The notes under the pieces are model-generated. The model did not search any database. It was given only the letters and a program-made list of their open reading frames with translations, and was not told the DNA's origin. From Yamagishiella unicocca (taxonomy: Eukaryota; Chlorophyta; Chlorophyceae; Chlamydomonadales; Volvocaceae), in contig BDSL01000039.1 of the NCBI GenBank assembly GCA_003116995.1, forward strand, positions 620,001-684,000: a stretch of 64,000 nucleotides of DNA, written 5' to 3'. Shown here piece by piece: positions 22,700-43,105 of the stretch; position 1 is the stretch's first letter, and each line of letters opens with the position of its first letter. The position numbers and the translations under genes are program-made.

Positions 22700-24424
22700 G
22701 CGGCGGTGCGGTACCACTTGATTCGACGAGAGCACGTGGCGCGAGGCGCGTTCGTCAAGATCGACTGCCGCAGTTCACACACTGTCAAACGCGGCAGCAA
22801 TGAGAACACAGCAATGGTCAAGTAGAGCGGCACTCAATGGATCCGTCTTCAGTAAGCAACATGCTATGCAAGTCAGTTTCTTTCCATCGCGATCATGTAT
22901 CGTTCGGAAGGGCGCCCACGCACAGAGATAGCGCCCACCTTGCCCATCCAGCTTTTTAGGGCCTTGACGAAAAATATAACTGTCCTGAAGTAATATTTGC
23001 CGGATGTTCATGCCGTTACTATATATATGCCTGTCATCACCTGCTGCTTGCTGCTGTGTGTGGCCCTATGCATGAGTCCTGTTAAGGCCCTTTAAGGCAA
23101 CGCTCGCTGCTGGCAATCTGGGCCCAAACATTAACCAGATGCGCAAGGCCACATATATGCTTTTGAGTGTCTCAGAGGCTTTTGTGGGCTTACGAAATAT
23201 CCTGGTGTACGAAGGACTGATATGACACATGGGCGGATCCCAGCAGCATCTCAGCAGATAAAGCAAGGTCCGTCCCTCCCACTCGCTTAGCAGCAGGATA
23301 TCGCGCCAGCCAGCAGCAGCAGCAGTAAATATTCACCGCAGTAAACAGCGAGCCGTGTCAGACTACTACTGGGTCAACGAATCAAAATTTGCCAGCCGGC
23401 CTGCCCGCCCCTCCAACGACGCTTGCTGCTGCACGCACTGCGCGCTTGAGCTCACAACACTATCTACTATCTAAGGATCGCTCCGAGGTGAGCTACAACG
23501 TTTGAGGTCCGAGGTAGGGCTGACGTATGCATGTAGGGTCACACGCTCGCTCGCACTCTGAGCGCTGCCTTCACCACAGCGCTCCCGGCACACCATAAAG
23601 TAAACTCATACGTATAGAGTAGCATATGTAGTTCCTTATTACTTCTTCATTATCTAGAGGGCGTAGTTTCCAAAGGGCGCTCTCGTTCGGTCTGACCGCT
23701 CAGGCCTCACCGCAGCTTCCCAGCAGAGCCCAGCCTAGAAGCAAGCCGGCGGTTTCAAAGTTCAAGACGAATCCTCAATAATCCCGCTGTTCTCATCAGG
23801 AAGTAATTAATTCCATAAGTCTCAACCATCAGCTGCTTTGGTGTATGCATACGTTAAATGTTATATATACATATGTCGCGACGGAGGTGCAAGCTTTCAA
23901 CTGCTGGCATCTGATCTATCTATATGTATCATAATGAACATGCATATGCAGCAGGCAGCAGGCTGTTTGTAAAAACACTGATTTCCACAGGGCGAGTGCG
24001 CATGCAGACCCATTTAATGTACGTACGTAGTAACTATACTGTTGCAGCGGGCCCCAGACCGTAGGTACGTAGAGCCATCGCATCGCCTGCAGCAGGCACT
24101 GTGGACACTGCTGAAAGAGGCGCAGGAAGCAAGGAGAACAAACAATAAACCAGTTTGCGACACATACAGCACTGATGTGGGAGGCTTGCTTATTAGGCCT
24201 TCCCCTACATTTAGTTTGTGCCTACGCTTACTTAGGCATGCTATATATGTATGGTATACATGCATGTATGTACATGAACGTGAACACGTAGCTGCTGTAC
24301 ACGAGTTGATTGATCCCGCCCGCCCTATCTAATCCGTCCATCGTTGCTCTCACACCACACTTACTTATAACACCGTACCCCAGGTGACGTGACACGCAGA
24401 GAAGAGGGGACAGCGTCGATCAGG
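22700..24424. other. Spacer upstream of the NYN-PARP gene
   Basis: No supported gene. The sequence is markedly less GC-rich than the left part of the window, with TATA and CATG-rich tracts. It must hold the promoter and 5' UTR of the NYN-PARP gene. An AG at about 24384 just upstream of the proposed first ATG could be an acceptor. A short reading frame at about 24070-24190 containing LQQALWTLLKEAQEARRTNN could be an additional 5' exon, so the true start may lie inside this stretch. Confidence 0.45.
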
Positions 24425-27400
24425 ATGTTCGGCAACCTCTCACGAGGCGGGGACGGCGGTGCGCCCTGCCAGCCCCAGCAGCAAGAGGAAGTCATCAGTG
24501 AGTGCGTGGTTTTGCAGCTGTGTGCGTGTGTGTCAGCTATCCATGTAGCCAACCGACAGCTGCACTATCTACGCACGTACGTACCTATCTACCTGCCTCA
24601 TGCATGTAATTGCTTGGCTCCATGAATGCACGTAATGAACCTACTCATGACGTACATATATTAATACGTCTCTTTTGTGCTACGTAAATAATAATAAACC
24701 AACGACGGATTTAGGAGGAACTGAACATCCTGCGTGCTGACGACGTGCTAACGTTCATGTATATATGTTCTCTCGCTCCGCCGACCACCCTGTCGCAAAT
24801 ATAACGTCACCTATCTATCTACCACCTGACTCTACGCCCGGCGGCTCCCAGTCGTGTGGGACATCGAGAACTGCCCCGTCCCACCCAGCCTCACCGTCTA
24901 TGATGTGCTCGAGTGAGTTAATTCCATAACTACCTTACTTGCAGCAGCATGCCTGCTGTACGTATCGATGGAGAGGCTGAGTCTGTACGTACTACGTAGC
25001 TATTGCCGTGCCTCTTATCACATACATCGTCTATCACCGATCTACCTACGTACGTATGTACATTATATACTGTATGCACGCCGCATGCAACCAAGCAATA
25101 TACATTAACACCCCTCCCTTATTATTACGTACACCCGCCCTTGGCTCTATCTGCTGGTATACATGCATCGTACGCGCTTCAGTTACACCCTACACGCACG
25201 CACCCTACGAGCTTAGGAAGAAAAGAATGCGTGTATATATACGTACATACGTATGTATGTTATTATTGCTCGATCTATGTATCGCATATATATATATACA
25301 TGCATGCGCCCTACCTCATCATATATACTTACTTTCGACGCACGCACTCGCTCTTGCAGGTGCCTGGAGCGGGAATTCGTCAGGAACCACCCCAGCCGCC
25401 TGCTGACCTCCTGGTGTGTGTCCATCTCCGAGGGGTCCAGAAGGTACTTGGACATCGGCAGGTCCGTGCTGGAGGAGCTCAACAACCGGCGCGTCTTTGT
25501 GTTCTACAACTCTGGCGAGGGCAAGCTTGGGGACACGGACGTGCCACTGCGTACGGTACGCACGCACGCACGTGCGTGCACACGTACGTTCGTACAAGTG
25601 CCTATTAATGCAATTTGCATGTGCGATATGAACACACAAAATAAAAATATTTTCGCAAACTTGTTTGTAAATGTTCCTCCATCCTACAGTACTTTGCTTC
25701 TGTGACGGCCCCCCCTGCCTGCTGGTGACGCACGCCAACCATTTGCAGGCCATACAGAAGTTTGTCGATACGTGGCTCAGGCGCAAGAAGTCGTACCCGG
25801 CCGTTGTGGTCATGGTGGGCTCGGACGCCGATTTCCACCACGATCTCCGCAGCGCGGCCGATGAGGGCATTACGGTAGGTGGGTAGGTGGCGCACGCTAG
25901 CTACAGCAGTATCTAGCGAGCGCACGCTGGTCTAGCGAGCGAGCGCACGCTGTTCTAGCGAGCACGCTGGTATATATAGCGAGCGCATGCTGGTCTAGAT
26001 AGCGAGCGCACGCTGGTGTATCCTAGCGAGCGCACGCTGCTATGCTGCTGGTCTAGCGGGCGGCGCACTGCTGCTTACTTCGTCACGCTGTAAATACGTA
26101 GCGTCCAACAGCAGCTCGCCAAATCGCGAACTGTGCCAAATAATAATGTATGGCTTCCCAAGCTACCAATCTGAGGAGGCAACCATGGCAAGCAAGCAAG
26201 CATCCAGCAGCAGCAGCAGCAACAAAGCACACGCACGTTCACCCACCCATAGCTAGCCGACAGATAGATAGGTCACCCTGCCTTTTAACGTACGTATGCG
26301 CTATATATATCCGTTCACCCAATTAATATATAACCACATGCGTGATCGCTGCCGTCCGCCATTGCAGTGTTACCGCGTATTCTCAAGAAGCAATGTGGCA
26401 CGCTCGGTTGCCACCATGCCAGGAATTCACAACGAGGAGTTCGTCGCCTTGCTTCAGCGCTACTTTGGGCCGCAGCAAGGCAAAGGTAGATAGGCGGCGT
26501 TGCTATTATTGGTAGGAGACGAAGTTCATTCGGTTTGGATATATATATGTGCTCGCTTGGGGACGGATCTGCTGGCGGCGGCGGCGCACGCAATGCGTAC
26601 GTAGTCCATCTCTACATTATATGCTATGTATGCATGTCCCTATATATTCTCTAGCTAGCGTGTGAAGTAAATCCACCAGAATATAAAGGCGTAGTCTCAC
26701 GTACGCACGTACATATGTAGGTATGATGATGCTACTTACCATCCAGCTATCTTTGGAGCTCGCAGTAAATCACCTGCTGGGAAATGCGATACCCGTACGT
26801 ATGTAGCTAGCGGCGGCTTTCATGGTCCGCCCACAAGCCATCAATAAGCCCTTTGCCGCCACCGCAAGCGCCACGCCAAAGGACTCGTTTAGGGCTGCTG
26901 TATATGTATGGCCGCTGTTGCAGCACTAGTGCGTGGTGACACGGCACACGCACAGTTGACGAGCAGCGTGATATGCACAAGCGCAGCGAGCCTTCCCTCT
27001 ATCTGTTGTAGATAGGCTATCTATCTAAAGTCCAACTAACTGCTGCTGGGCCGGGGCAGTCAGAACGATAGACCGTACGTCGCGACCAGCAGCGAGACCA
27101 CGCAGACCGATCATCGATTGTCGCCATACATCATGCTAAGTCCAGAGCGTGATACAACACCCTATCTACCTCCATCTGCAGCTGCTCACGTGGGATATGT
27201 GCGTGACGCCCCTACCTACGTAGCGCCGCTGCTGGACCGTCCATAAGCCATTCGCCGCCCACACGCAAAAGCCTCTGCAAAAGAATGATAATAATAATAA
27301 TAAGGTTACGCTGGCGCTAGGCCTTGCGTGTGTTAAGGGGGCGGGGCGGTGAGGGTGTCAGTACACCCTATACGCTCGCGCCACCGGTCTGCAAAAGAAT

Positions 27401-30400
27401 TGCTTTGTTGAAAGCGCGGTGGTTGGCCGCTGCTGTTGCAGCATGCGTTCCCATGGCATAACCGCGTCGGTTATTATAGGTTGTTTTGGCTTACCGAGGG
27501 TGTCGCTCGGTTATCATGTGGGTCGGTCATCAGTCTTCGGTTAACGGGCGCTAAACGGTCGTGTTGGTAACCAAGTGCAAGGGTAACCCAACCTAGCTAG
27601 TGGTTGGGTAAACGGGTACCCAGCCAGGTTAATGAACCGTATATATATATGGTTGGGTTAGTTAGTATATGTATGGTTTCTGGCTACCGACCCCTGTAAA
27701 CGGGTACCCAGGTTAACGAACCATGTGGTACCACGATCACTCGGTATCCCACACGGGGGATTAACGCCCATCCATTAACCGAAGACGACCCACGCACCCG
27801 ATAAGCGAGCCCCTACGGACCGGTTAACCCTGCTGGTTATTACCCAGCCCGACCCGGCCTGGTGGTGACACTATTGCGACCCCGCAGACCTGGAATCCCT
27901 TGCCAAAGGTGATAAGGTCGGGGTAAAACAACGGGTAGTAGTGCACGTAGGAGAATAGCTGCGTGCTGTAGCAGCAGGTGTATGTATGACAAATGTACGG
28001 CGGCCCTTGCGTGCGAACACTACCTAAGAGGCGCAGAGCGCTCTCCCAGCATCTCGAGAACTACTCGCCTGCTGCTACAGTTGCCCAGTCCGGAGCACCA
28101 TCATAATGTCGTCCACAGCAGCCATCCAGCAGGACGCCTTTGAATGCCGTGCGTGCTGCAGACCTATCTTATCACGGTCCGTTTCAAAGTGTGAGGATAA
28201 TAGCAATTAAGGTTAGTTGGCACAATTTCCACTTTCGCGACGGCCGCTCCTTATTATATGAATAAATTAAGTATGACAGACGCCGCCGACATATGCGTCC
28301 GCTGATTCACGCCTCGCAGTCTGCTGCTCCGTGCCTACGTACCTACCAATATGAGCAGACTACTGGCCATAAACGTCCCTACCTGCCCCGCCCGCCGCCG
28401 TACGTGCAGATGACACGCACGTTTTGGGAGCTGGTGTTGCCACATGCACCAACCAAGCGCAGCAGCAGCAGCTACCGAAGCCGCTATCAACATCTCCACC
28501 ACCACCACCGCGCCCTTCTGCCGCCGGCCTTCCAACACAACCTTCCCCGCCACAGCCAACGCTGACCCAGCAGGCAAGCCTCAAGGCGTACATTAACTTC
28601 GTCCCGCCGGATGGTGATAACGTAATCTGGGGTGTGGCTGGTCCCCTCAAGGATGCCACGGCGCTCGACATCCGGGACTGGCTCCGACCAACGTTTGATG
28701 TGCGGCCTGGCTTTGTGTCAATGAAGGCAGGGTTTTACACCAACGATAAACACAAGAACGCCCGCACGGCGTACCTTTGGGTCAACTTCAGCAGCCTGGC
28801 CAACGCAAAAGCTGCACATGCTGCGTTGGGAAATGTTCGGAAGGCCTTCAAGTCGCCGCTGAATGGCCGGGTAGCGACGTACGAACTGGCCATGCCACAG
28901 GAGCCGCAGGCTCCGCGCTGGTCGCCGCTAAAGCAGGATGCGGAGCTCAAGGTGGAGGAGGTGGTGTTTGAGGTCTCCCACGATGCCCCTGCAGGCAGGT
29001 AGCTAATAACCTGCCAAAGTGTTTATTATGCACCGCTGTGCGCGCGCACACTCATCATCAAGGGCGCCGGCCTGTATTGACATATATAGGAGATAAGATC
29101 GACTTGTGTGTGTATGTCGGAGATCGACTGTGCGTGCGTGTGTAATAATACATGTAACTGGAAGTATATATAGTAACGAAGGGGGGCCGACGGATGTATA
29201 GAGCTTCTCTTCAGCAGCAGACTGTAAGTAATAAGGGCGCCGGTGTGTGATTGATGATATGCTAATAATATTAATAATAACCCCTGCGTGCTAATTATAT
29301 ATAGTAGAAATGAACGTTGCATGTTTAACCAATCGGACAGCTAGCAGGACGTGTTCGCCTATCTATTTATATATAACGAGCGAGCGATCTACCTGTAAGC
29401 GACGATGGCCGGCCCTGCGTGCTGCCTGATGCAGACACCCTGCTGCCGGAGGGCTTTCTGGCCCAGAACGCTAGGGACCTGATCGTAAAACACTTCGCGC
29501 CGCGGCTCAAAAGCCTGGCAGAAGACGCGGGGGTCACCATCTTGCCTCCTGTTTCCGATGGTGGGGCGGCGGCGGCGCTCGACGACGATGCCATCGGCTT
29601 CGACAACAACCGCCTGAGGGTCAAGGGCAGCGCTCTAAACGTGGACGCATTTGAGGTACACCGGCGCCGTCAAGTTGGAAGCGCGCACGGGCAAATGGAG
29701 CGACAATAAGCGATCGAAGGGACAATTATTATTGCTGATCTACCGCGCGCGTGCGTGCGTGCCCATGCATCCCCACTCTCCGCACAATTACATACACTTG
29801 CTTTTGTTCGGTTAGTTGATAGTGATACGTGTCAAGAAAAGGCATCTTTAAGTTTCCGGCTGCCTTATTATTACTTGTTGCAGGCGCGCCTCCACTCGCT
29901 GTGCCTGGACAGCATCGTTCACATCGTGATGCCTTTCAAGCCGGACTCCTTGTTTCAGCTGCCAGGTAGCCAGGCGCTGGTCGGGGACAAACTCGATGCT
30001 GCCCGTGTATTTATCGCGGCCCGACTGCGCAAACTGAGGAAGCGCCTTGACTTCTATATGGGTGACAATGGCTTCACTTCCACGTCCACCCCGATGTACG
30101 GCGGCAAGTAAGTGAGCATCGTCTGCATGCGGTGATCAATCATTGCGTGCAATAATGGGGATCACGCACGTTCGTTTGCTTGGCGGGGGTTCGCATGCTT
30201 GCTTGGAGTGACAGCGTGCCAGCGAGCGACCTCGCTCAAGTGAGCAAGTAGGTAGATAGGTGATAATTTAGTTATTTGTCGTTGTATTCGTTGCCATCGA
30301 TGTCTGGTACTTTGATCGATCTTTATGCCAGTTCGTTTCGTTGTTCGGTTCCCTTCACATAGTTACGTATTATTCACGCACTCAAGGCAGGTGTGTATGT

Positions 30401-33400
30401 CGACGATTCACATCGCTCGCTCCGTTATGCGTTCGTTTGAACATACGCATCTCCCCGATCAAGCAAATAACCGAATGCACCATCAACTAACGATGTTGTA
30501 TTCTGCATTATTATTATTATTATTATTACAGTACGCCGGCACTAGGCCTGGCGTGTGTTAAGGGGCGGGGCGGGGCGGTGAGGGCATCAGTACATACACC
30601 CCGCCTATACGCCGCGCCACCAGTAGTACCAATCCACCTACCTCATATCGCTAAGGCCCACGCCACATTGTCGCTGTGGAACACGACCAGTTAGTGCAAC
30701 TCGCCGGAGGCTGGTGCTCCTGCCACATCCCTAACTCATATTTGTATCAATTATTGAGATTAAAGCGCTCTCCGGAAACCGGTCTTCCGCCAGCTCCATG
30801 TCCAGCATGCCGCCATGCTTGGTGTACTTGAGTGTACTTGATGGTTGAGCCGCCCGTAGGACGCACACGCTCCCGTCTCTGGCCTAAGCCCCAACACTTC
30901 ATACTAGAGTTAGTCCTCCCTAACCACACCGATGGCTATTGGCTGCCCGCACCATCGCCGGCGGGATCGGCGTTGTGTTATGCACGCTTGGAATACGTAG
31001 GTTGGAATACGATCATCATCATTTATAGGTAGATCAATCCATAGATCATGTGCGCAAGTAATAAGGCCTGGAAATCGGATGGACATATATACATGCATAT
31101 GTGTCCCTATGGGAGTACTTACTTGCCCCGGTTTGGTGCCAGTTTGCCCTCTTTGCCCGGTTAACTGGGCCGGTAATCGGCCCCTCTAAACCCCCCCGGT
31201 TGGCCAGCCGCCCGGTAACCGACCCATCCCAGTAACCGACCCCCTTACTCGATCGGTTACCGGGGCCGGTAATCGGCCCCGGTAACCGGCCCCCGGTTGC
31301 TTTGGCCAGCCACCCAGTAACGGACCACTCCCACTAACTGCTGGCCCCCTACCTTGCCCGGTTACATACCGGGGCCGGTTACCAGTGGGATGGTCTCAGG
31401 AGAGACCATTTGATACCGGGTGAAATGCATGATAAGTTTTCGCCATGCGTGCTAAGCAGGGTGTGCAGCAGGGGGGGCTTCGAATGAATCGGAGCAGCAT
31501 ACATGGCGTATATACGGCACGTACAACAAAATACCGATGCAGCAGTGCGCATGTATATGCCGGCTTACTTGCTTGCGTGCCCCCTACCGCCGATCCATCC
31601 TGTGCATGTGTATGTGCGTGTATATACGTATGTGCATGCAGGAATGACCTGCAACCGCCTGGACAGCCCTACATGCTCATCATCACGTGCGCTTCTGCCC
31701 ATGTCATGGTAGGTCGCAATGAGAGCCTGCTGCTGTACATCAATGTTGATTGGAAAGGAAAACTCTTATTAGCTTATTAGCTTATGTATATATTACCCGC
31801 CGTACGCACGCCGCCCATCCAGCAGCTAGTGGATATATACGTATATATGCCAGGGAATATTCCCTCTGGCATATATAAACGCGTCGGTTAGGGGTCGTTT
31901 TGGCTGACCATGGGGTTCGGTTAACGAATGGGTCGGTCAACCGTCGTTAAGGGGTCGGTTAACGGTCATGTGGATTACCGAGTGGATGGAATGGTAACCC
32001 AACCTAGTGGTTGGGTAAACGGGTACCCAACGGGTACCCTGGTAAACGAACCCTATGGTTGGGTTACAGTACCGTTAGTTTCTGGCTACCGACCCCTGTA
32101 AACGGGTACGTACCCAGGTTTACAAACCATGTGTTTTGGTACCCTTGCCTCAGTATCCCCAATGGGGTTTAACCCTCGTTAACCGAAGATAGCCCACCCA
32201 ATAACCGACCCCATATGGACTGGTCAACCCTGGTTACCCAGCCCAACCCGGCCTGCGTGGTTGTGAACAGCAGCAACGACAGATTGGCATCCATTCTGGT
32301 GTATTACAAAGTAGGACCACGCAGCTGCACAGCTGTCCACGCTGTCATCCGCCACCCTCACACTGCTGTCCACGCTGTCATCCGCCACCCTCACACTGCT
32401 GTCCACACTGTCACCCGCACACAGCTGTCCACGCTGTCACCCGCCATCTGCACAGAGTTGTCCACACTCGCTGTCACCCGCACACAGCTGTCCACACTGT
32501 CACCCGCCATCCGCACACGGCTGTCCACGCTGTCACCTGCCGCCACAACCAGGGCCGCTCATTATTTAAATAAGCCAACTATGACAGACGCCACCGACAT
32601 TTCCTTGTTTTCTTCCTGGAAAAATAAAGCTATTTAAGATATGTATGTTGTTACAAGCTGAGGCTTGTGTGGTTCAGACGAGCCGAGAGGCTCATGAACC
32701 GCTAAAAAGCGCGCCTAGTCCTTATCCAGTAAACAACAAGTTAAGACAAACTGAAACTAAACTAAACTAAATAGGCAAAACATTACGCAAGGCTTCCCAG
32801 TTTAGTTAACCTGCGACACCTTATCGCATGTACGACTCGTGCCAGAGCTCGTTGGTCCTCAACGCCCATGACCTCTATTTAGGGTTTAAGAAGATATGTG
32901 ATTACTTAGGAAGATGGGAAACCAAGGTGCCATGGGCGACGTACTGCTCTTTGCTGCAGTAAGCAACTCGACCGGCTACCCGGTAATGACCGTGTTCCCG
33001 TGTTCCCAAGAATGACCGGCTAGCCGGTCATGGCCGTGTTCCCGTGTTCCCGCATTACAATACAGCCAAATGTCACTCCAAGCTTATGGCACCCCTTAGT
33101 ATGACTTATTAGGACTATTTGGTATATCCGGGCCACTCGCAACCGTGGGAACACGGCCTAAACGCCGGGAACACGGTTATGACACACACCGTGTTCCCAC
33201 CAATATCACCCGTGTTCCCACTGATTCCCCCGCTCATATCACCCGCATGGACGCCCGGTACCCTCTATATGACTTATAGGGACTATTTAGTATGTCTGGG
33301 CCACTCGCAAGGGCGGGAACACGGCCTAAATGCTGGGAACACGGTTATGACACACACCGTGTTCCCATCAATATCACCCGTGTTCCCTCTGATCCCCCGC

Positions 33401-36400
33401 TCATATCACCCGCATGGACGCCCGGTACCCTCTATATGACTTATAAGGACTATTTAGTATGTCTGGGCCACTCGCAAGGGCGGGAACACGGCCTAAATGC
33501 TGGGAACACGGTTATGACACACAATCGGTGGGAACACGGGTGATATTGGTGGGAACAACGAAGGAGCCATACAGGGCCCGTGCACATGCTTGTCAGTGGC
33601 GCACAGGCATATATTGTATATTGGTTTGTTACAAATTATGGTGTCTTCTTGAACTAGGGTGGGTGGGCTTTCCGAGGCAGTTACTGTATCGGTTGACCGG
33701 GCTTCTGTGAACCGGGCGCCTCGTTCACACTGCCGGCGCGGGTCAGTCAGCCTGTTTGGTAAACGGCCCGGTAGGTCGGTAACCTGGGGGTAACCGAGGG
33801 TATGTATGCCATAGGGATTGTTCATCATCACATCGATACTTGCTTACTAGGCTGCTGCCCAGCCCTAGTAGTGTGTCCACGCACCTGCTGCTCGCTATTA
33901 CACATTTTTGCTCGCTGTATGCATGCATGTATGTACGTTCGAGCAATTTGCCCCGCCGGCCGCGCATGCCGCCGTGCTTGCCTTACTTGTGCGCATATGG
34001 GATAACTGATCTCTGGTTACGTTATGCACACCACACATACAAGCAAGGTAAGAAAAAATACTGCGTATCATATGCGTCTGCTTACTTATGTCTTACAGGC
34101 CACCATGGAGCCTGTGATACCCAACCACTTCACTGTCGCCTTTATTGAGCTGAAGGCGGCAAGCAAGGGCCCGTGGGCCCTTACGCCCGTCGACTCAGTG
34201 TTTGTGAAGTCCGCGGGCGGTGGCCTTGACAGCCTTCTGAAGGGCATCCGGAGCCTGAACGAGGGGCAGATGGGAGTCAGCGGTGACTGCCGCTACCGAA
34301 TCACGCACCATAAGGACGACAAGAAATACCTGGTGTGGGGCCAGGGTAAGAGCGACGTAGATGAGGGCAGCGCTGAGCTCCAGGTAGGTGCGCGATACGT
34401 GCAGCAGTGAATGTAAGTAGTGCCCGTCGTGCGTGCGTGTATGTGCAGTAAGCAAGCGTGCGTATCTTGTGCAAATGTATGACTGAAGCTGATGAGCTAT
34501 ATTTCCTGCTGAATGCTGGCCATTGTGACTAGCGCTAGCTATCTATCTAGATAGGTATTGCTCTATTACTTACGTTGATGGCACAGACATCATCATGCAT
34601 AGCGGGGCGCCCCTCAGCGCTGCTGCTGATTGAGGCACTGCAGGCTGGACTACATACATACGATATATACGATCCCCTAAGACGGCACCTAAGAGTTAGG
34701 GTGTCTAACTACAGATTGTTTATCAACAATCGCCGCTGCGATTCTGACCTCCAACGGCTTGCTTATCAGTGAGAACCGGGGAGGGAGATGGGTCTGCTGG
34801 GGGCCCTGGTGTGGGTAGAGCAGCATGGTTCGCACGGCTCTTCAGCTGTGTCCATGTCCACTCATACTGCTGGCAGGACTCACGCAATGGATGGTTAATA
34901 AATGCTCCGCACGGGAAGTGCGGATCCAAGGCCCTAATGAGGGGACCTTGTGATACGGGCTGGCTGATACCCATCTAAGTAAGGGCCAGCGGGTCCAGAA
35001 GGCGCTGGCACATGGATAGGGGCCGCAGATAGATAGAGATACGGAGAGTCTGCGTGCGTAAACAAACAACTGAGTAATCCCTAGCGGCCTCAAATTTGAG
35101 AGCTATGCGCCGGACGGTATATATCCCGGGGATTCCTAGAAACCATGCCAGGCTTCGGCTGGAGTACGGATTCAGCAGCAGCATTATTATTCTTATTATT
35201 ATTACTGTATGCGTATGTCGCTTCATTCGGCGGCATCGGTACGGTCTCATTTGCCGTTTCCTAATCTGATGCATGTGCCAAATCATTTTCATTGGTGCAC
35301 ACGCACGCAGTGCGTGTACGTACGCGGCAATCCAAGCTAGGCACGGGTGCGTGCCCCGCCATCCCAAAGTTGTCCGTGTGTCCTGCATCGCGTCTGTTGT
35401 ACAGGACCTGCTGGCGAACCTCGTAGGTGCTCGTGTGCCCAGCGCCCGACCGGTCAAATGCATTGCACCGTCCACCGTGCTGTTCAACCTGGTGAAGCGC
35501 TCGGACGCATTCAAGGACCTTGCGAAGGAGGCACAGCTCAAGAACGACGTGCACATAAGAGCGGGTCCGACGAACGACAAGGGCCCGTGTCTGCCAGGCC
35601 GCACCTTCACCATTCGGGGCGGCACTACTGCAGGCGTCGACAAGTACGTTCAGCGGCTGGGGCACATGTTGGACATTCAGCAGAAAAAAGTGACACGTTT
35701 GGAGTTGCAGGCGAGTAATTCACACACATTTGCATGACTGCCGCCATGGGCCCATATTGCTTTGCGTACCCGTTCTTATAATGGAAAAAACCTGTTTTTG
35801 TCTCTCCTATATACTTCTTACTCACTATATTTCTTACTACATGCGTACCCTTAGTAAGAAGTATAGTGCAGTCTATCTGCTGCTGTATGTCCGACACGAA
35901 TCAAGGGCCGCGCGCCGGCATGTTAATTACACTCTGGGAATGGGCTGGTCCGTTTTCTCAGACCGTTTTGGTAGGTTTTGCTACCTGTTATGCATTCCGT
36001 TTCCTGGTCCATCCGTATGGGCCAAAAACCTAGAATGACACGGACCTAAACCGAGCGAGCCGGGAACGGAGAGGACCACCTGATAAGTTGTACAGTTCGT
36101 TGTGAACTGACCAGGAACGGACCGAGTCAATTAGCTCGGCGAGAGTCTTGGACTGCAAGGCGTGCAAAATTCAATTCGCTCAAGCAAGTCCTGAATGGTC
36201 GCAATGAATCACCAGGCCTCACTACTTACCGAGCCCACCTCCATTTATCCGAAAGAGTATGTTAGCAATTGTGATAGCCTCTGCGCTTTCGGGTGCCTGC
36301 GCTTCCCATGCATAGCTGTCCATCCTGGTCGTCGAGGGCGAGCTTCTCTCCTGGCCGGTGTTCTGCTACGCAACTGGCCAAAAGGAAAGCATCTATATTA

Positions 36401-39400
36401 CGTGTCTGGGCAGCAAACTTAGCAGCTTTGTTCGATTATTCCCTCAATTTGAATGCTAGCTAGGCGCTGGAACAAAAGGTTACTGTCCATGTCCGGGAGG
36501 CATATGAAGCGAGTATGCCATTGGAAATTGATGCCGGTCCAGTTATATCTTGGTTTGAGCGACATTGGTGTCGTATTGTTTTGAACAAAGTAAGGCAGGC
36601 TTGATTGAAAATGCTGCCAACACGACTTCTTTTGCATTCTGTCTTTCATGCTGCAACAACTAAGCCTTCCTAAGCCTTCCTAAGCAAAACGCCGTCTTGT
36701 TACATATGATACTAATAGCTGCGTTAAACGGACTGCAATATGAACTGCAAAGCGCAAACGGAGTGGTGCTCTCCGTTCCCGGCCTGGGCTAACGAACCAG
36801 AACGGAGCGGTTGGTCCTGGAACGGCGGACAAGCACGGACCAGATTAAGTACATATACGAGCATAGCGGCCCGCGCCGTCCTAGGTTCCGTAGACATACA
36901 TACATAATAAGCAAGCAAGGTAGGTACGCACTCACCGCATGCATGCATGTATTTAGATGTGTTTATATACATGGTAGCTGGCGCTGCGGTGCTGCTGCTC
37001 GCTGCTTCATTATTGTTTGCTTGCTTGCCAGGTGCCGGACGAGGCGCGATGCCTATTCTTGCCTGGCAACATCCAAGAGATCAACGAGCTGCTTCAGGAT
37101 CTGGCGGAGAGCAAGGACCACCCAGTGTGGATGAGCCGCCCGGACGACGGCTTCATCATCAAGGGTCTGCTTTACGAGAAGGTGGATGATGCATATGGCT
37201 GGGTATATGCGTGGGTAATAACGAACTAACTACTACTTCTAGATAAAAGGACACTTGCCCTGCTTTGCTTGATGAGCTGCGCGTCAGCTGCTGGAGATAG
37301 ATATACCTACTACGTACGTATGTGCATGCGCTTATTAGGGTTACGTATGTACATGCAAACAAGCTGTACGTGGAATGAATGTGTTCACTAGCTTGGCACG
37401 TATGTACTCGCACGCCGCCGGGATAAACTGGCAGCCAATCGGTCGAGGTGTTGCTTGCTTGGTCACCTGCTGCTGCCCATCCATCCAGCCAAAACCGCCA
37501 CGCACAGCCTGCTGGCCCTCCGTCGAGCGATATCGATCATCTATCACCAGCAGCTGACGTTCAAGATGTGGCTGCCGTGGTGATGCATGTTATGTTAGTC
37601 GCCACGTGCACACACTGCTGCGTGCGTTCAATCACTATCTACCCATAGACATCACGGGCGGCGGGATCTTCCCGCCTCCAGAAGCTTCAGTTGATGATGT
37701 ATCGGATGAGCGCTAGGTGGTTGTCAGCAGCGCGTCACCATGTATGGCGTCACCATGGCGTCACCGTGGCGTCACCGTGGCGTCACCATATATATGTCCG
37801 CCCACAGGACCAAGGAGTAGTGGCCGCCAGCGACGACATCGCTTGCAGCGACGACGACTCCGCTTGGCAGTACTTCGTGCCGACTTCAGACGCTGCATAC
37901 ATCGATACGAAGGAGCTTGGCATCCGGGACCTGCCAGTGCATGAAGTCGGCGGAGTCAAAGGCGTATGGAATCCGATGCGACTTTCAGCCGGCAAGCAGT
38001 TGGAAGCCGATTTTGGGAAGTGGGTGACCAGCGGCAAGGACGCGGCGCTGCAGGAATCGGTGCTGCAAGCCGACAACTGGAAGTACAACGACGTGGTGCG
38101 TGACGGAGATGTTTGAGGCGCGCGTGATTTTGCGCGTGATCGATTGATTGCTTGCGTGACGAGTGGGCCCATCCTGCCTGTTGGTCGACATCCGCATGTA
38201 TGCAAGCACGCACATCCGCCCAGCAGCTAGCATGCATGCACCCTACCTACCGCAACTTCCCACCCAGCCAGTGGCTACTTGCGCCCCGATGTCCTTGTAG
38301 ACGTACACCGTCAACTTCAACACCATGCAGCAAGTCAACTCCAGTACCAAGTCCATGAGGCTGGTCCGCAGGGCACTGCCACCTGGCGCCGCTGCAGATG
38401 CCACGCAGCAGGCACAGCAGGCAACGTCGCCGCCGCCGCCGTCGCTCCGACCGGCCGCAGTGCAGCCGAACATGCGTCCCGTCGCCGCACCCGTGGCAGC
38501 GGCGGCGACGAAGGCGGCAGCCAGGGCGGCTCGGCAGGCTGCGCGAGATGCCAAGGCTGCCGTGGAGCTGTTCGAGTACCGCGAACGGGTGCTCAAGGGC
38601 CCCCTGGTGTTCACTTTCGAGGGCATTACCTCGGATGTGCAGAAGGCCGTGAAGCGCCTGAAGAGCGAGTTCGCCAGCCGGTGTCGCGTGGAGCAAAAGG
38701 ACACGCCTGAGGGGATGCGGTACCTACGGAAGGTGCTGCGGGGCCAGATGCTGTCGGAAGCGAGCAAGCGGGGGCTGCAGCTGCGGCTGGAGAGGAAGCC
38801 TGCTGCCGGGGCCGGGGGGGGCGTGTCTGCAGGCAGCAGCAGCACCATGACGCCAGCCTGGAGCATGACGTGCGCAGGTAGGTGCGGGGCACGCACGTAC
38901 GGTGGCGATGGTGAGTCGTGCGTGCTGGTTGCGCATGTTACTGATTGCGTATGTAGTTACTAGTGCGGTAAAGGCAGGCAGGCTTAGCATGTTGCCTGCT
39001 AGATAGTCGTACGAAAATAATTGTGGTTAGTGAGGCGGGACAAGCATAGCGTCCTAGAAGAACGACGAACATAGCTGCTGGCAAACAAGCATCGATGTAC
39101 GCTGGTATCGATGCGGGATTCGTTGGTCGATGGTGTCCTGGTCAATTAAGAGCGCAGGCAGGCCAGATGATAAATGGCTGATATGCTGTAATAGGTATCA
39201 ATATGTATGCATGCTCCTGCGTGTGCCACGCACATCCACTCCGTTGCGAGCTTCACCCAACCCCTTCCCGCCCTACCTGCCGCTAATAAGCGTAACTACG
39301 CCGCCCCGTGCCCTCGCCCCCACGCCCCCACGTGCATACACGTTGTCAAGTACAGGCGCCAAGGACGACGTCGACGGCTTTTTGCGCCACGTGTGGGACG

Positions 39401-42212
39401 TGCTGATTGCCCGCGAGCTGGCCCGCCAGGTGGCGGAAGCTGCCGTTGCAACCGTCTACCCCGACACCTGGGCGACGGCGGCAGCGGCCGGCGCCGTCGC
39501 TGCCTCCGCAGGAGCTGACGGCTCCGACGACGATGACAGCGATAGCAGTGGCCTGCCGACGTTCCTCCTGGTGGACTTGCTGAAGCCGGTGCCCACCAGT
39601 AATGGGTCAGCAGCGGCGGCTGCCGAAGCAGCATCAGCGGCGGTGTTTGCCGAAGCTAGAGCAGTAGAGGCGGCGCTTGCCAGAGCATCAGAGGCGGTGT
39701 TTGCCGGAGCAGCAGCAGCAGCGGCGGGGGCTGCCGAAGCCAGAGCAGCAACATCGGCGGCTGTCAGAGCCAGAGCAGCAGCAGCGGCGGCTACCGGAGC
39801 CGGAGCAGCAACGGCGGCGCTTGCCGAAGCTAGAGCAGCAGAGGCGGCGCTTGCCAGAGCGGCAGCAGCGGCGGCTGCCGGAGCCGGAGCAGCAGCAGCG
39901 GCGAGCAGCAGCGGCAGCAGCAGTAGCCTGCAGGACCGTTGTGTGGATCCAAACGTGGGGGCCGAGGTCGCCTTCGTGGCGGGCCTGTGGGGTTGCACCA
40001 TGGACGAGGAGCTGATCGTACAAATCACACGCGTGCAGAATACGATGCAGTACGACCAATTTGACCGGCAGCGGGAGGTGCGCAGTGGGCGCGGGGACAG
40101 ATGGGCGGTGCGTGACGATTTTATAGTTGTTGTATTGTATACCACACTACTTCAGTTTTCTGCAAAGACTCCGTTACACACCCTGCTAGAGCCCCACCGG
40201 GGCGATAATAAACAATGCAGGTAGGGAGAGGGTGAAGACGCACCGACGATGGACGGCAGCAAACGGCAACACGACTAGCCGTAAACGTCCAAAGCCAGCA
40301 CGGCCTGTAGCGCTACATTACAAACACCGACGCTCCAGCGTCCCAACAGGAGCAAACCCGCTCCAGAACCTAGCGACATTCGTGCGTCGTATGTTGCAAA
40401 AAACCATGGTTTTCCTCGTAAGCTCGGAAAACCGTTACGTCATTTTGGGGATTGCCAGGGCAGGAGCGATCGATCGAGCTGCTGGGTAGTACGATTTCTA
40501 TACTGGGCCAGGGGCGGGCTTGTGTGGCTGGGCTGGCGTACGCGTATGTTTTTACTCCTACTGGCACGGAGGTGGCATGCGCATGACCATTCCGTGTGTG
40601 GAGGAACGGGACGTCGCTCGTCGCCCCACCGTCACCTACCGCCGCGGCGCCACCTATCCGCCGTGCGTCACCTAGCTACCTTCACTACGACAGGCACCTA
40701 GCAACCGGCACCTACCGCCGCCTCGCCTACCGACCGGCAGCGGCATCCACCCTGCCTGACGTTCTACCCTACCACGCACCCATATCCTGCGCAGATCTTC
40801 TTGCAGGCCGGCCTCAAGCCGCACCTGCCTTACAAGGCAGGCCTGCAGCACGAGCCACAGTTCAACAAGACCGCCAACAAGTGGCTGTGGCACGGCACGC
40901 GCAGTACACCGCCGGCCAAGGTGAGCTCGCCCTTACCCCAATACATACATAGGTAGATTCCTGCCTCACATTTCTGTGTGGCTCGCTTGAGTAAAAAGTC
41001 GGGATCTGGGTAATAACTATGAGGCAGCAGCAGGGCGGGCCTGCCTCACAATCCTATGTGGCTTGCACGAAACACGACCCGCAACCAATCTCTGCGGACC
41101 ATCTTGTATTTAGGACTCCGTACCCCTGCTGCCCACTACTGCCGCGGCCACCTATCAGGTGATCGAGAGCCCCTTCTTCCTGGAACAAGGATTCAGCGAC
41201 CCGCGCTGCTTTTGGGTGAGTGTATGACACCCCTTACTTTATTACTGCCGAGTTGCCTTCATGTAAACCACTTTTTTGCCGCCCACCTTCTCTGCCTCTG
41301 CAAGCAAGCAAGACATACTACAGGGTGCCGACCGTACCAAGCACGGCACATGCACAGGCTCCATCATTCATGTCACAACTTACGCATTCTTCCTTTAACT
41401 TATTAAGCTTCTCATTTCCCACATACACACTTTCGGCACCTCACTCGCACACACCTGAATGACGTGCAACAGATGCTCGGGATGTCCTCCTTTTTGATCG
41501 ATGCACTCACTCCTTCGCTTGCTTGCCGACCCTTCCCTTGATCGACCTCAATGCAGGGCGCTGCCAACTATTTCGCTGAGAACGCGTCGTACTGCGCTAA
41601 AGGCTACCAGCACAACCTCCCCGATGGCAACCGCCAGGTGCTGATGTGTGAGGTGAGTGGGAGTAGATAGCTATCTCACTATAGTGGGCAAGGGCAGAGA
41701 TAGAAGAGTGGCGTCATCATCCGTACGCGTACATATATCCATCCGTACGTAGGTAGGTAGATAGCGAAGCACACATTACTACAGTTAGCGGCCAGGCTCC
41801 CCCACCTTCGTACAGTGTCATTCGCTTCGTATGTAACCCATCCAGCCAGCCATCATCCCGCCCACTGTTACATACAGTAGTTAGTTGTAACCGCCACCCC
41901 GCCCGCCGCCACGCTAGAGAGATCCTGATCGCCCGCCAATGCATTGGGCGTGCGCAGGTGCTGACGGGCTATTCGAAAGACTACGACGCAGAGACGCAGC
42001 CGCTGCTTCGCATGCCGCCAGCCATCGAGCGCACCGACCCACTCTACGCCGCCGTGGCTACTGCCAGCGACCAGCGCTATAGCAGCGTCAGCGGTGTCAC
42101 AGCTGGCAGCCGCGTTTTCATGACGTACACCCAGGGTGCGGTACGACAGTATCCACACTACGTGGTCACGTACAAGCCGCCTGGTATTACCGGCGGGGCA
42201 CAAGTTGTCTGA
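24425..42212 (+). CDS. NYN nuclease - RNA-binding - WWE - PARP ADP-ribosyltransferase fusion protein
   Basis: Exons: 24425-24497, 24852-24912, 25360-25555, 25749-25874, 26368-26485, 28410-28998, 29400-29655, 29884-30107, 31642-31708, 34099-34383, 35405-35710, 37032-37202, one unresolved near 37650-37725, 37808-38095, 38301-38877, 39356-40077, 40795-40920, 41159-41215, 41557-41652, 41958-42212. All others join in phase to at least 1,530 residues. Residues 24-190 are a NYN (PIN-like RNase) domain: IVWDIENCPVP, VFVFYNSGEGKLGDTDV and VVMVGSDADF carry the catalytic acids. Residues 255-330 look RRM-like. About 390-770 contain KH-like stretches. About 835-945 are WWE, ending YTVNFNTMQQVN and RLVRR. 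Then come an Ala-rich linker and a PARP catalytic domain: ITRVQN, WHGTR, NYFAENASYC and a final RVFMTY. The triad reads H-Y-V, which predicts mono-ADP-ribosylation. Expected role: binding, cutting or ADP-ribosyl marking of RNA or RNA-bound proteins (inference). The start may lie further upstream. Confidence 0.87.
25905..26060. repeat. Imperfect GCGAGCGCACGCTGGTCTA tandem repeat
   Basis: About six imperfect copies of 22-26 bp (TCTAGCGAGCGCACGCTGGT), in the intron right after the fourth exon of the NYN-PARP gene. Confidence 0.75.
27303..27395. repeat. Short dispersed element R5, copy 1
   Basis: GGCGCTAGGCCTTGCGTGTG, then TTAAGGGGGCGGGGCGGTGAGGG, then a TATACGC...GCGCCACC end. The same order is found at 30530-30625. 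Both copies directly follow an ATT/TAA microsatellite, both are in introns of the NYN-PARP gene, and both have inverted GGCGC-type ends. Confidence 0.75.
27465..27866. mobile_element. MITE-like element R4, copy 1
   Basis: About 400 bp without coding capacity. The two halves are roughly inverted: GTCTTCGGTTAACGG near the left side is mirrored by CATTAACCGAAGACGAC near the right. The interior has repeated AACGGGTACCCAG blocks. A homologous copy lies at 31880-32258. Both are in introns of the NYN-PARP gene. A non-autonomous DNA transposon is the simplest reading; target-site duplications were not established. Confidence 0.65.
30508..30529. repeat. (ATT)n microsatellite
   Basis: About seven ATT units directly before element R5 copy 2. 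Confidence 0.9.
30530..30625. repeat. Short dispersed element R5, copy 2
   Basis: GGCACTAGGCCTGGCGTGTG, TTAAGGGGCGGGGC, GGTGAGGGCATCAGTACA and GCCGCGCCACC match copy 1 at 27303-27395 in order and orientation. Confidence 0.75.
31170..31385. repeat. CCGGTAA-rich degenerate repeat
   Basis: Many direct and inverted copies of CCGGTAAC and GGTTACCGG occur within about 215 bp, in an intron of the NYN-PARP gene. It resembles the termini of the nearby R4 element and may be an eroded copy. Confidence 0.6.
31880..32258. mobile_element. MITE-like element R4, copy 2
   Basis: It has the same block order as 27465-27866: GTCGGTTA end, CCCAACCTAGTGGTTGGGTA, TGGCTACCGACCCCTGTAAA, TTAACCGAAGA and CCCAACCCGGCCTG. 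It lies in the NYN-PARP intron between exons 31642-31708 and 34099-34383. Internal inverted symmetry could form a long hairpin. Confidence 0.65.
32320..32540. repeat. CTGTCCACGCTGTCAYCCGC minisatellite
   Basis: About seven imperfect copies of a 30-36 bp unit containing GCTGTCCACGCTGTCA, intronic in the NYN-PARP gene. Confidence 0.8.
33131..33560. repeat. 167-bp tandem repeat rich in GGGAACACGG and its inverse
   Basis: About 2.4 copies of a 167-168 bp unit start at GGCCACTCGC (33131, 33299 and 33466). Each unit carries GGGAACACGG twice and CCGTGTTCCC once or twice, so cruciform folding is possible. Related short motifs begin at about 32990. It is intronic in the NYN-PARP gene. Confidence 0.88.
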
Positions 42213-42949: not shown

Positions 42950-43105
42950 TTTTGCCTACGGCCTGTCGATTGGTGTTCTGGTGGTTTGCCTTTATTGCGG
43001 TGCACGTCGGTCTCTGTCTCCTCTGTCTTCCTCAGTGTCAGGCGATGAGCCCGATGGTTCTACCTTTTGGTCTGGAACCTACTGTAACCATTACAACAAC
43101 CAGAG
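42950..43105. repeat. Dispersed repeat family R1, copy 3
   Basis: GTTCTGGTGGTTTGCCTTTA, TCTGTCTCC, CTTCCTCAGTG, GAGCCCGATGGTTCT and CTTTTGGTCTGGAACCTACT then GTAACCATTAC. The order matches copy 4 at 59995-60145 over about 150 bp. Confidence 0.75.

Follow-up and report, generated by a model that had tools for sequence, protein, structure and literature searches.

The closest described layout is that of PARP14, in which RRMs and an array of KH domains precede a WWE domain and the transferase (PMC10450202, PMC13224862; citations here and below refer to the accessible parts of each paper). A PARP14 fragment of KH8, WWE and transferase binds RNA, and the catalytic fragment attaches ADP-ribose to RNA ends that carry a phosphate (PMC10450202). 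The NYN domain of MARF1, with an acidic site formed by Asp358, Asp426, Asp427 and Asp452, degrades single-stranded RNA in the presence of Mn or Mg, and MARF1 also carries two RRMs (PMC6294520). In KHNYN and ZAP (PARP13), KH plus NYN and WWE plus PARP are split over two partner proteins, and the PARP-like domain of ZAP has no catalytic activity (PMC11685948). Cnidaria possess HEPN RNase-TRADD-N-Macro-PARP fusions, and PARP14-like proteins with KH, RRM, macro and ART domains occur in oyster (PMC8195603). In the green lineage, WWE and PARP are combined in the RCD1/SRO proteins of plants (PMC4245714).

The window analysed here is a stretch of 64,000 nucleotides (C39:620001-684000) from an assembly of 133.4 Mb in 1,415 contigs. 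This genome contains 161 matches to DUF3707 (150 of 183 candidates scored), which we take to be a pherophorin-type family of volvocine and chlamydomonad algae, and 59 matches to chlorophyll-binding (light-harvesting) proteins, which together indicate a green alga of volvocine type. On the plus strand of the window a 19-exon model covering 24425-42212 was rebuilt manually, with open frames and splice sites as guides. Its product is likely best read as a transferase of the PARP14 kind to which a MARF1-like RNase is joined, with the following features:

24425-24497, 24852-24912, 25360-25555, 25749-25874 and 26368-26485, plus strand: exons 1-5, NYN RNase-like domain (aa 23-157 by Pfam)
28410-28998, plus strand: exon 6, Gln/Pro-rich linker, then RRM-like segment from aa 247 (weak single-sequence model)
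29400-29655, plus strand: exon 7, KH-like by eye only
29884-30107, plus strand: exon 8, KH-like by eye only
31642-31708, plus strand: exon 9, doubtful, 67 nt, preserves the phase between exons 8 and 10
34099-34383, plus strand: exon 10, KH-like, opens with GCCACCATGG
35405-35710, plus strand: exon 11, KH-like, directly followed by the GC-AG intron
37032-37202, plus strand: exon 12, KH-like by eye only, phase 0 into exon 13
37808-38095 and 38301-38877, plus strand: exons 13-14, WWE domain (PF02825), then a segment without known family
39356-40077, 40795-40920, 41159-41215, 41557-41652 and 41958-42212, plus strand: exons 15-19, Ala-rich linker and PARP catalytic domain (PF00644), stop codon at 42210-42212

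The spliced model comprises 4,593 nt including the stop codon and encodes 1,530 aa in a single open frame. Its 18 introns, 17 of them GT-AG and one GC-AG, are all consistent in phase. The coordinates and motifs given in the original prediction (WDIEN, GSDADF, YTVNFNTMQQVN, RVQN, WHGTR and YFAENASY) were all recovered, and the phase agreement it described holds throughout, while the additional small exon that it expected near 37.7 kb is unnecessary, since exons 12 and 13 already join in phase 0. An exon of 93 nt at 37649-37741, open and in phase, is possible there; from the acceptor at 37649 only one of the eight GT sites listed downstream (37742) yields a multiple of three. The mean codon score is positive and the best of the three frames in every exon except exon 9, a partly circular result since the score was trained on these same exons minus exon 9. 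The acceptor of exon 7 is weak (TGTAAG, score 0.9). Rfam returned no match at the gathering threshold, and none of eight long neighbouring frames had a Pfam match. The Ala-rich repeat of exon 15 is encoded by GC-rich repetitive DNA at 39608-39927 (self-matches of 73-84%).

The N-terminal 191 aa match the NYN structures of MARF1 (5yaa, E 7.7e-8; 6fdl, E 1.2e-7) over about aa 24-145, encoded by exons 1-4. This bears out the predicted NYN domain; the Pfam NYN profile (PF01936), however, remained under its cut-off of 24.2 bits both with the N-terminal 191 aa (E 7e-4, 20.6 bits, profile 2-124 of 145) and with the whole chain (E 0.043, 14.8 bits). Placing the end of exon 3 at 25555 and the start of exon 4 at 25749 restored an active-site Asp and improved the match to MARF1. 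The first exon 3-4 splice (25550/25690), since rejected, added 18 residues, lost the second active-site Asp and reached MARF1 at E 1.4e-4 only; the whole chain of that version had no Pfam NYN match at E 1. The Zc3h12a-type RNase family was not matched at E 10, either by the N-terminal 191 aa or by the whole chain. In the alignment to the MARF1 NYN domain, three of the four acidic residues are kept, the algal Asp28, Asp105 and Asp136 occupying places 1, 2 and 4, with Val at place 3. In MARF1 numbering these would correspond to Asp358, Asp426 and Asp452, and Val would replace Asp427. Judged by sequence, the domain is of the MARF1 type and not of the KHNYN type. A separate NYN-family match (30.9 bits) lies elsewhere in the genome, on contig C189 (L007 1501-1926).

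The WWE and PARP domains that had been predicted both exceed their Pfam cut-offs, alone and in the whole chain. For exons 13-14 the WWE profile scored 26.9 bits (E 6.3e-6; cut-off 21.1) over positions 37-67, its second half, and 23.2 bits in the whole-chain search. The motifs are AWQYF, VWNPM, QLE and YTVNFNTMQQVN, of which the first three, representing the first half of the domain, were assigned by eye; among solved chains the segment met TRIP12 at E 0.021 and DTX1 at E 0.073. For exons 15-19 the PARP profile scored 37.4 bits (E 2.4e-9; cut-off 26.7) over positions 25-129 of 199, and 32.4 bits in the whole chain. The nearest solved sequences, all weak, are PARP15 (E 0.005-0.03) and PARP14 (E 0.05-0.06), followed by an unrelated reductase (0.073) and then by PARP4 and PARP10 (0.5-0.7), so that the sequence weakly suggests PARP15/PARP14 as the closest relatives. 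Elsewhere in the genome, contig C74 carries another PARP exon (L001 1501-1632; 28.1 bits), PARP6/8/16-like by eye.

Exons 6-12 matched no Pfam family, whether searched as segments or within the whole chain, and at E 10 the whole chain met nothing in Pfam beyond PARP, WWE and NYN. In the profile search on the spliced protein that the original prediction had suggested, WWE and PARP exceeded their cut-offs, NYN stayed under its own and KH gave no match. A single-sequence model of exon 6 shows a helix-strand-strand-helix arrangement after a two-residue strand, at a pLDDT of only 43.5, and its RRM-like segment had no sequence match. A Foldseek search with the model of exon 11 found nothing at E 0.001, and its top rows were non-KH domains; a second look at this fold ranked HMG-CoA reductase above KH. 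The models weakly suggest RRM/KH-like folds, and the KH/RRM segments originally predicted keep low-confidence model support with no convincing sequence match.

Set against the known systems, the algal chain shares with PARP14 a WWE domain before the C-terminal transferase, and PARP15/PARP14 are the nearest solved sequences to its PARP domain. The RRM and KH array upstream has its counterpart only in RRM/KH-like segments seen in weak models or by eye, and these parts, if real, are too divergent for Pfam; in addition, the algal chain has an N-terminal NYN domain and no macrodomain match. From MARF1, with which it shares the NYN type and three of four active-site Asp residues, it differs in having WWE and PARP instead of LOTUS, for which no match was found at E 10. 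Like the animal TRADD-N proteins, it would join an RNase and a PARP, or KH/RRM and a PARP14-like transferase, in one chain, but their RNase is HEPN and not NYN, and their TRADD-N and macro domains have no match here. The pair of KHNYN and ZAP, to which the protein had originally been compared, has a corresponding set of parts divided between two proteins. This comparison is off in detail, since the algal NYN is not KHNYN-type, a zinc-finger (CCCH) match is absent and the PARP domain of ZAP is inactive; PARP14, minus its macrodomains, is the better counterpart. RCD1/SRO proteins share WWE and PARP, whereas the algal chain has no RST match and adds NYN and RNA-binding-like segments.

Readings with one gene and with two part at the passage from exon 8 to exon 10. 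Exon 8 ends in CAA/GTAAGT with two bases left over and exon 10 starts in phase 0, therefore an exon of 3n+1 bases is needed between them. Exon 9, of 67 nt, leads the candidates by splice sites and ranks second of 224 by total score, with a slightly negative codon score. Candidates as good as this turned up in 8 of 16 tiles on the minus strand and in 5 of 11 tiles on the plus strand outside the gene, and at a laxer threshold all 27 control tiles contained one, a chance rate that is perhaps overstated as the tiles may include genuine exons that belong to other genes. Exon 9 does not stand out from such chance candidates. A 31-nt exon at 30209-30239 outranks it once the codon score is added, with weaker splice sites. 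A direct join of exon 8 to exon 10 through another in-phase donor was rejected, the sole well-scoring one lying past a TAA stop.

Two same-strand neighbours would account for the chance quality of exon 9: an NYN-RRM/KH-like nuclease gene that begins at 24.4 kb and ends at about 30-32 kb, followed by a KH-like-WWE-PARP gene at 34.1-42.2 kb. About 4 kb with repeats separates exon 8 from exon 10, read-through of exon 8 stops at the TAA (30108-30110), and the read-through frame of exon 9 stops at 31780, with a TGTAA following at 32097. Exon 10 opens with GCC ACC ATG G, a good start-codon context, so a second start is possible. However, the TAA of exon 8 sits within the GTAAGT of a well-scoring donor (8.6, among the best 1.3% of GT sites), and the acceptor of exon 10, 6 nt upstream of this ATG, ranks within the best 0.25% of all AG sites of the window. 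Chlamydomonas uses UGUAA as its principal poly(A) signal (PMC4025486), and 49.8% of its sequences carry it at most 50 nt from the cleavage site (PMC1868727). The TGTAA at 32097 is the only one in 30108-34099 and falls within a repeat of intron 9 that has a relative in intron 5 (31875-32261 and 27458-27866, respectively; 71% over 431 columns), and the first one past the final stop is at 43083; since only 49.8% of the Chlamydomonas sequences have the signal so placed, its scarcity is mild evidence only. KH-like segments, recognised by eye apart from exon 11, also seem to flank the gap as in PARP14. By judgement and not by calculation, we therefore consider a single gene spanning exons 1-19 rather probable, and separate neighbours a serious but clearly less probable reading, in which there is no fusion and both products may still act together.

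A chimeric assembly of unrelated loci is very improbable. It could be suspected from contig C107, which carries a 100% identical copy of 1,653 bp of the window (23367-25019, the upstream region and exons 1-2; L024 7801-9453) adjacent to a repeat that occurs in intron 9 as well. But the odd contig is C107 itself, where the copy also adjoins a 7.9-kb near-perfect palindrome (99.66%), and no break interrupts the NYN match between exon 1/2 and exon 4, hence exons 1-2 belong at the window locus. The copy on C107 is either a recent fragment capture or an assembly error. Apart from exons 1-2, the gene parts searched, that is all but the tail of exon 14 and the linker of exon 15, are single copy in the genome. 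Intron 9 also contains direct repeats at a spacing of about 168 bp (33100-33523).

Given a single chain, one or both enzymes could be dead and the protein an RNA-binding scaffold, similar to ZAP with its inactive PARP domain. The loss of one of the four MARF1 Asp residues would fit such a scaffold, as would the C-terminal third of the PARP domain, which lies outside the Pfam match and alone found no PDB hit. The third position of the PARP triad is presumably the Val in YPHYVVTYK, as placed by our own alignment to the PARP14 sequence. A hydrophobic residue is, on the other hand, usual at this position in mono-transferases, and Asp28, Asp105 and Asp136 as well as the PARP His and Tyr motifs (WHGT, YFAENASY) are kept. 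We consider loss of activity unlikely, and lean by a narrow preference towards one volvocine gene of about 1,530 aa, composed of a MARF1-type NYN domain, RRM/KH-like segments, WWE, an Ala-rich linker and a PARP14-like transferase, whose product would bind, cut and ADP-ribosylate RNA.

Searches for relatives returned none. Residues 1-1130 of the first splice version (8000 candidates), residues 252-945 (7999 candidates) and the PARP part, residues 1305-1530 (691 candidates), gave nothing significant in the protein search. This says little, because the PARP-part query met no other PARP, and the collection may hold few. Among IMG/VR viral contigs the NYN part had four pattern matches, none of them a relative, and the PARP part had no match. 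The whole-genome searches with the PARP and NYN families missed the window locus because it was read exon by exon, and the WWE family profile matched nowhere in the genome, the window locus included.

The architecture had been put forward as not known to be described. As a bare combination of RNase and PARP in one chain it is not new, given the cnidarian HEPN RNase-PARP fusions (PMC8195603). NYN joined to WWE-PARP in an alga, and NYN with PARP in one protein at all, were not found in the literature searched, which covered sources other than subscription papers and database architecture lists. The accessible parts of PMC11685948, PMC12582503, PMC3482391, PMC3710099 and PMC8195603 do not contain the pairing, NYN is absent from the accessible main text of a survey of PARPs across life (PMC4245714), and in the available part of a 2026 review of PARP14 NYN appears only in the glossary, under KHNYN (PMC13224862).

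The domain set fits the cutting of RNA and the transfer of ADP-ribose that the original prediction ascribed to an RNA-targeting factor; we infer both enzyme activities, as we do the single transcript, the KH/RRM folds, the coupling of the activities and the target. By analogy with the PARP14 fragments and the MARF1 NYN domain, the RRM/KH-like array would hold single-stranded RNA, which the NYN domain may cut by means of a metal held by Asp28, Asp105 and Asp136. The transferase would then attach single ADP-ribose units either to bound proteins or to the cut RNA at its phosphate end, while the WWE domain, by reading ADP-ribose, would hold the complex at its target. From the animal systems (PMC8195603) one may draw the analogy of a possible function in defence against viruses or transposons.

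We propose, tentatively and with somewhat more doubt than confidence, that in a green alga one chain unites an NYN endonuclease with a mono-ADP-ribosyltransferase and an RNA-binding array like that of PARP14, so that RNA is caught and cut and its new end ADP-ribosylated by this chain. If true, this would be a one-protein version of functions that are split in animals between MARF1/KHNYN and PARP14/ZAP, and the plant lineage would have its own counterpart of the HEPN-PARP fusions of animals. If one transcript joins the exons, the locus would be a green-lineage case of a natural fusion between RNA cleavage and ADP-ribosylation, it would offer a single protein for direct tests of ADP-ribosylation at newly cut RNA ends, and it would support the view that RNase domains and RNA-binding PARPs share one pathway outside animals too.
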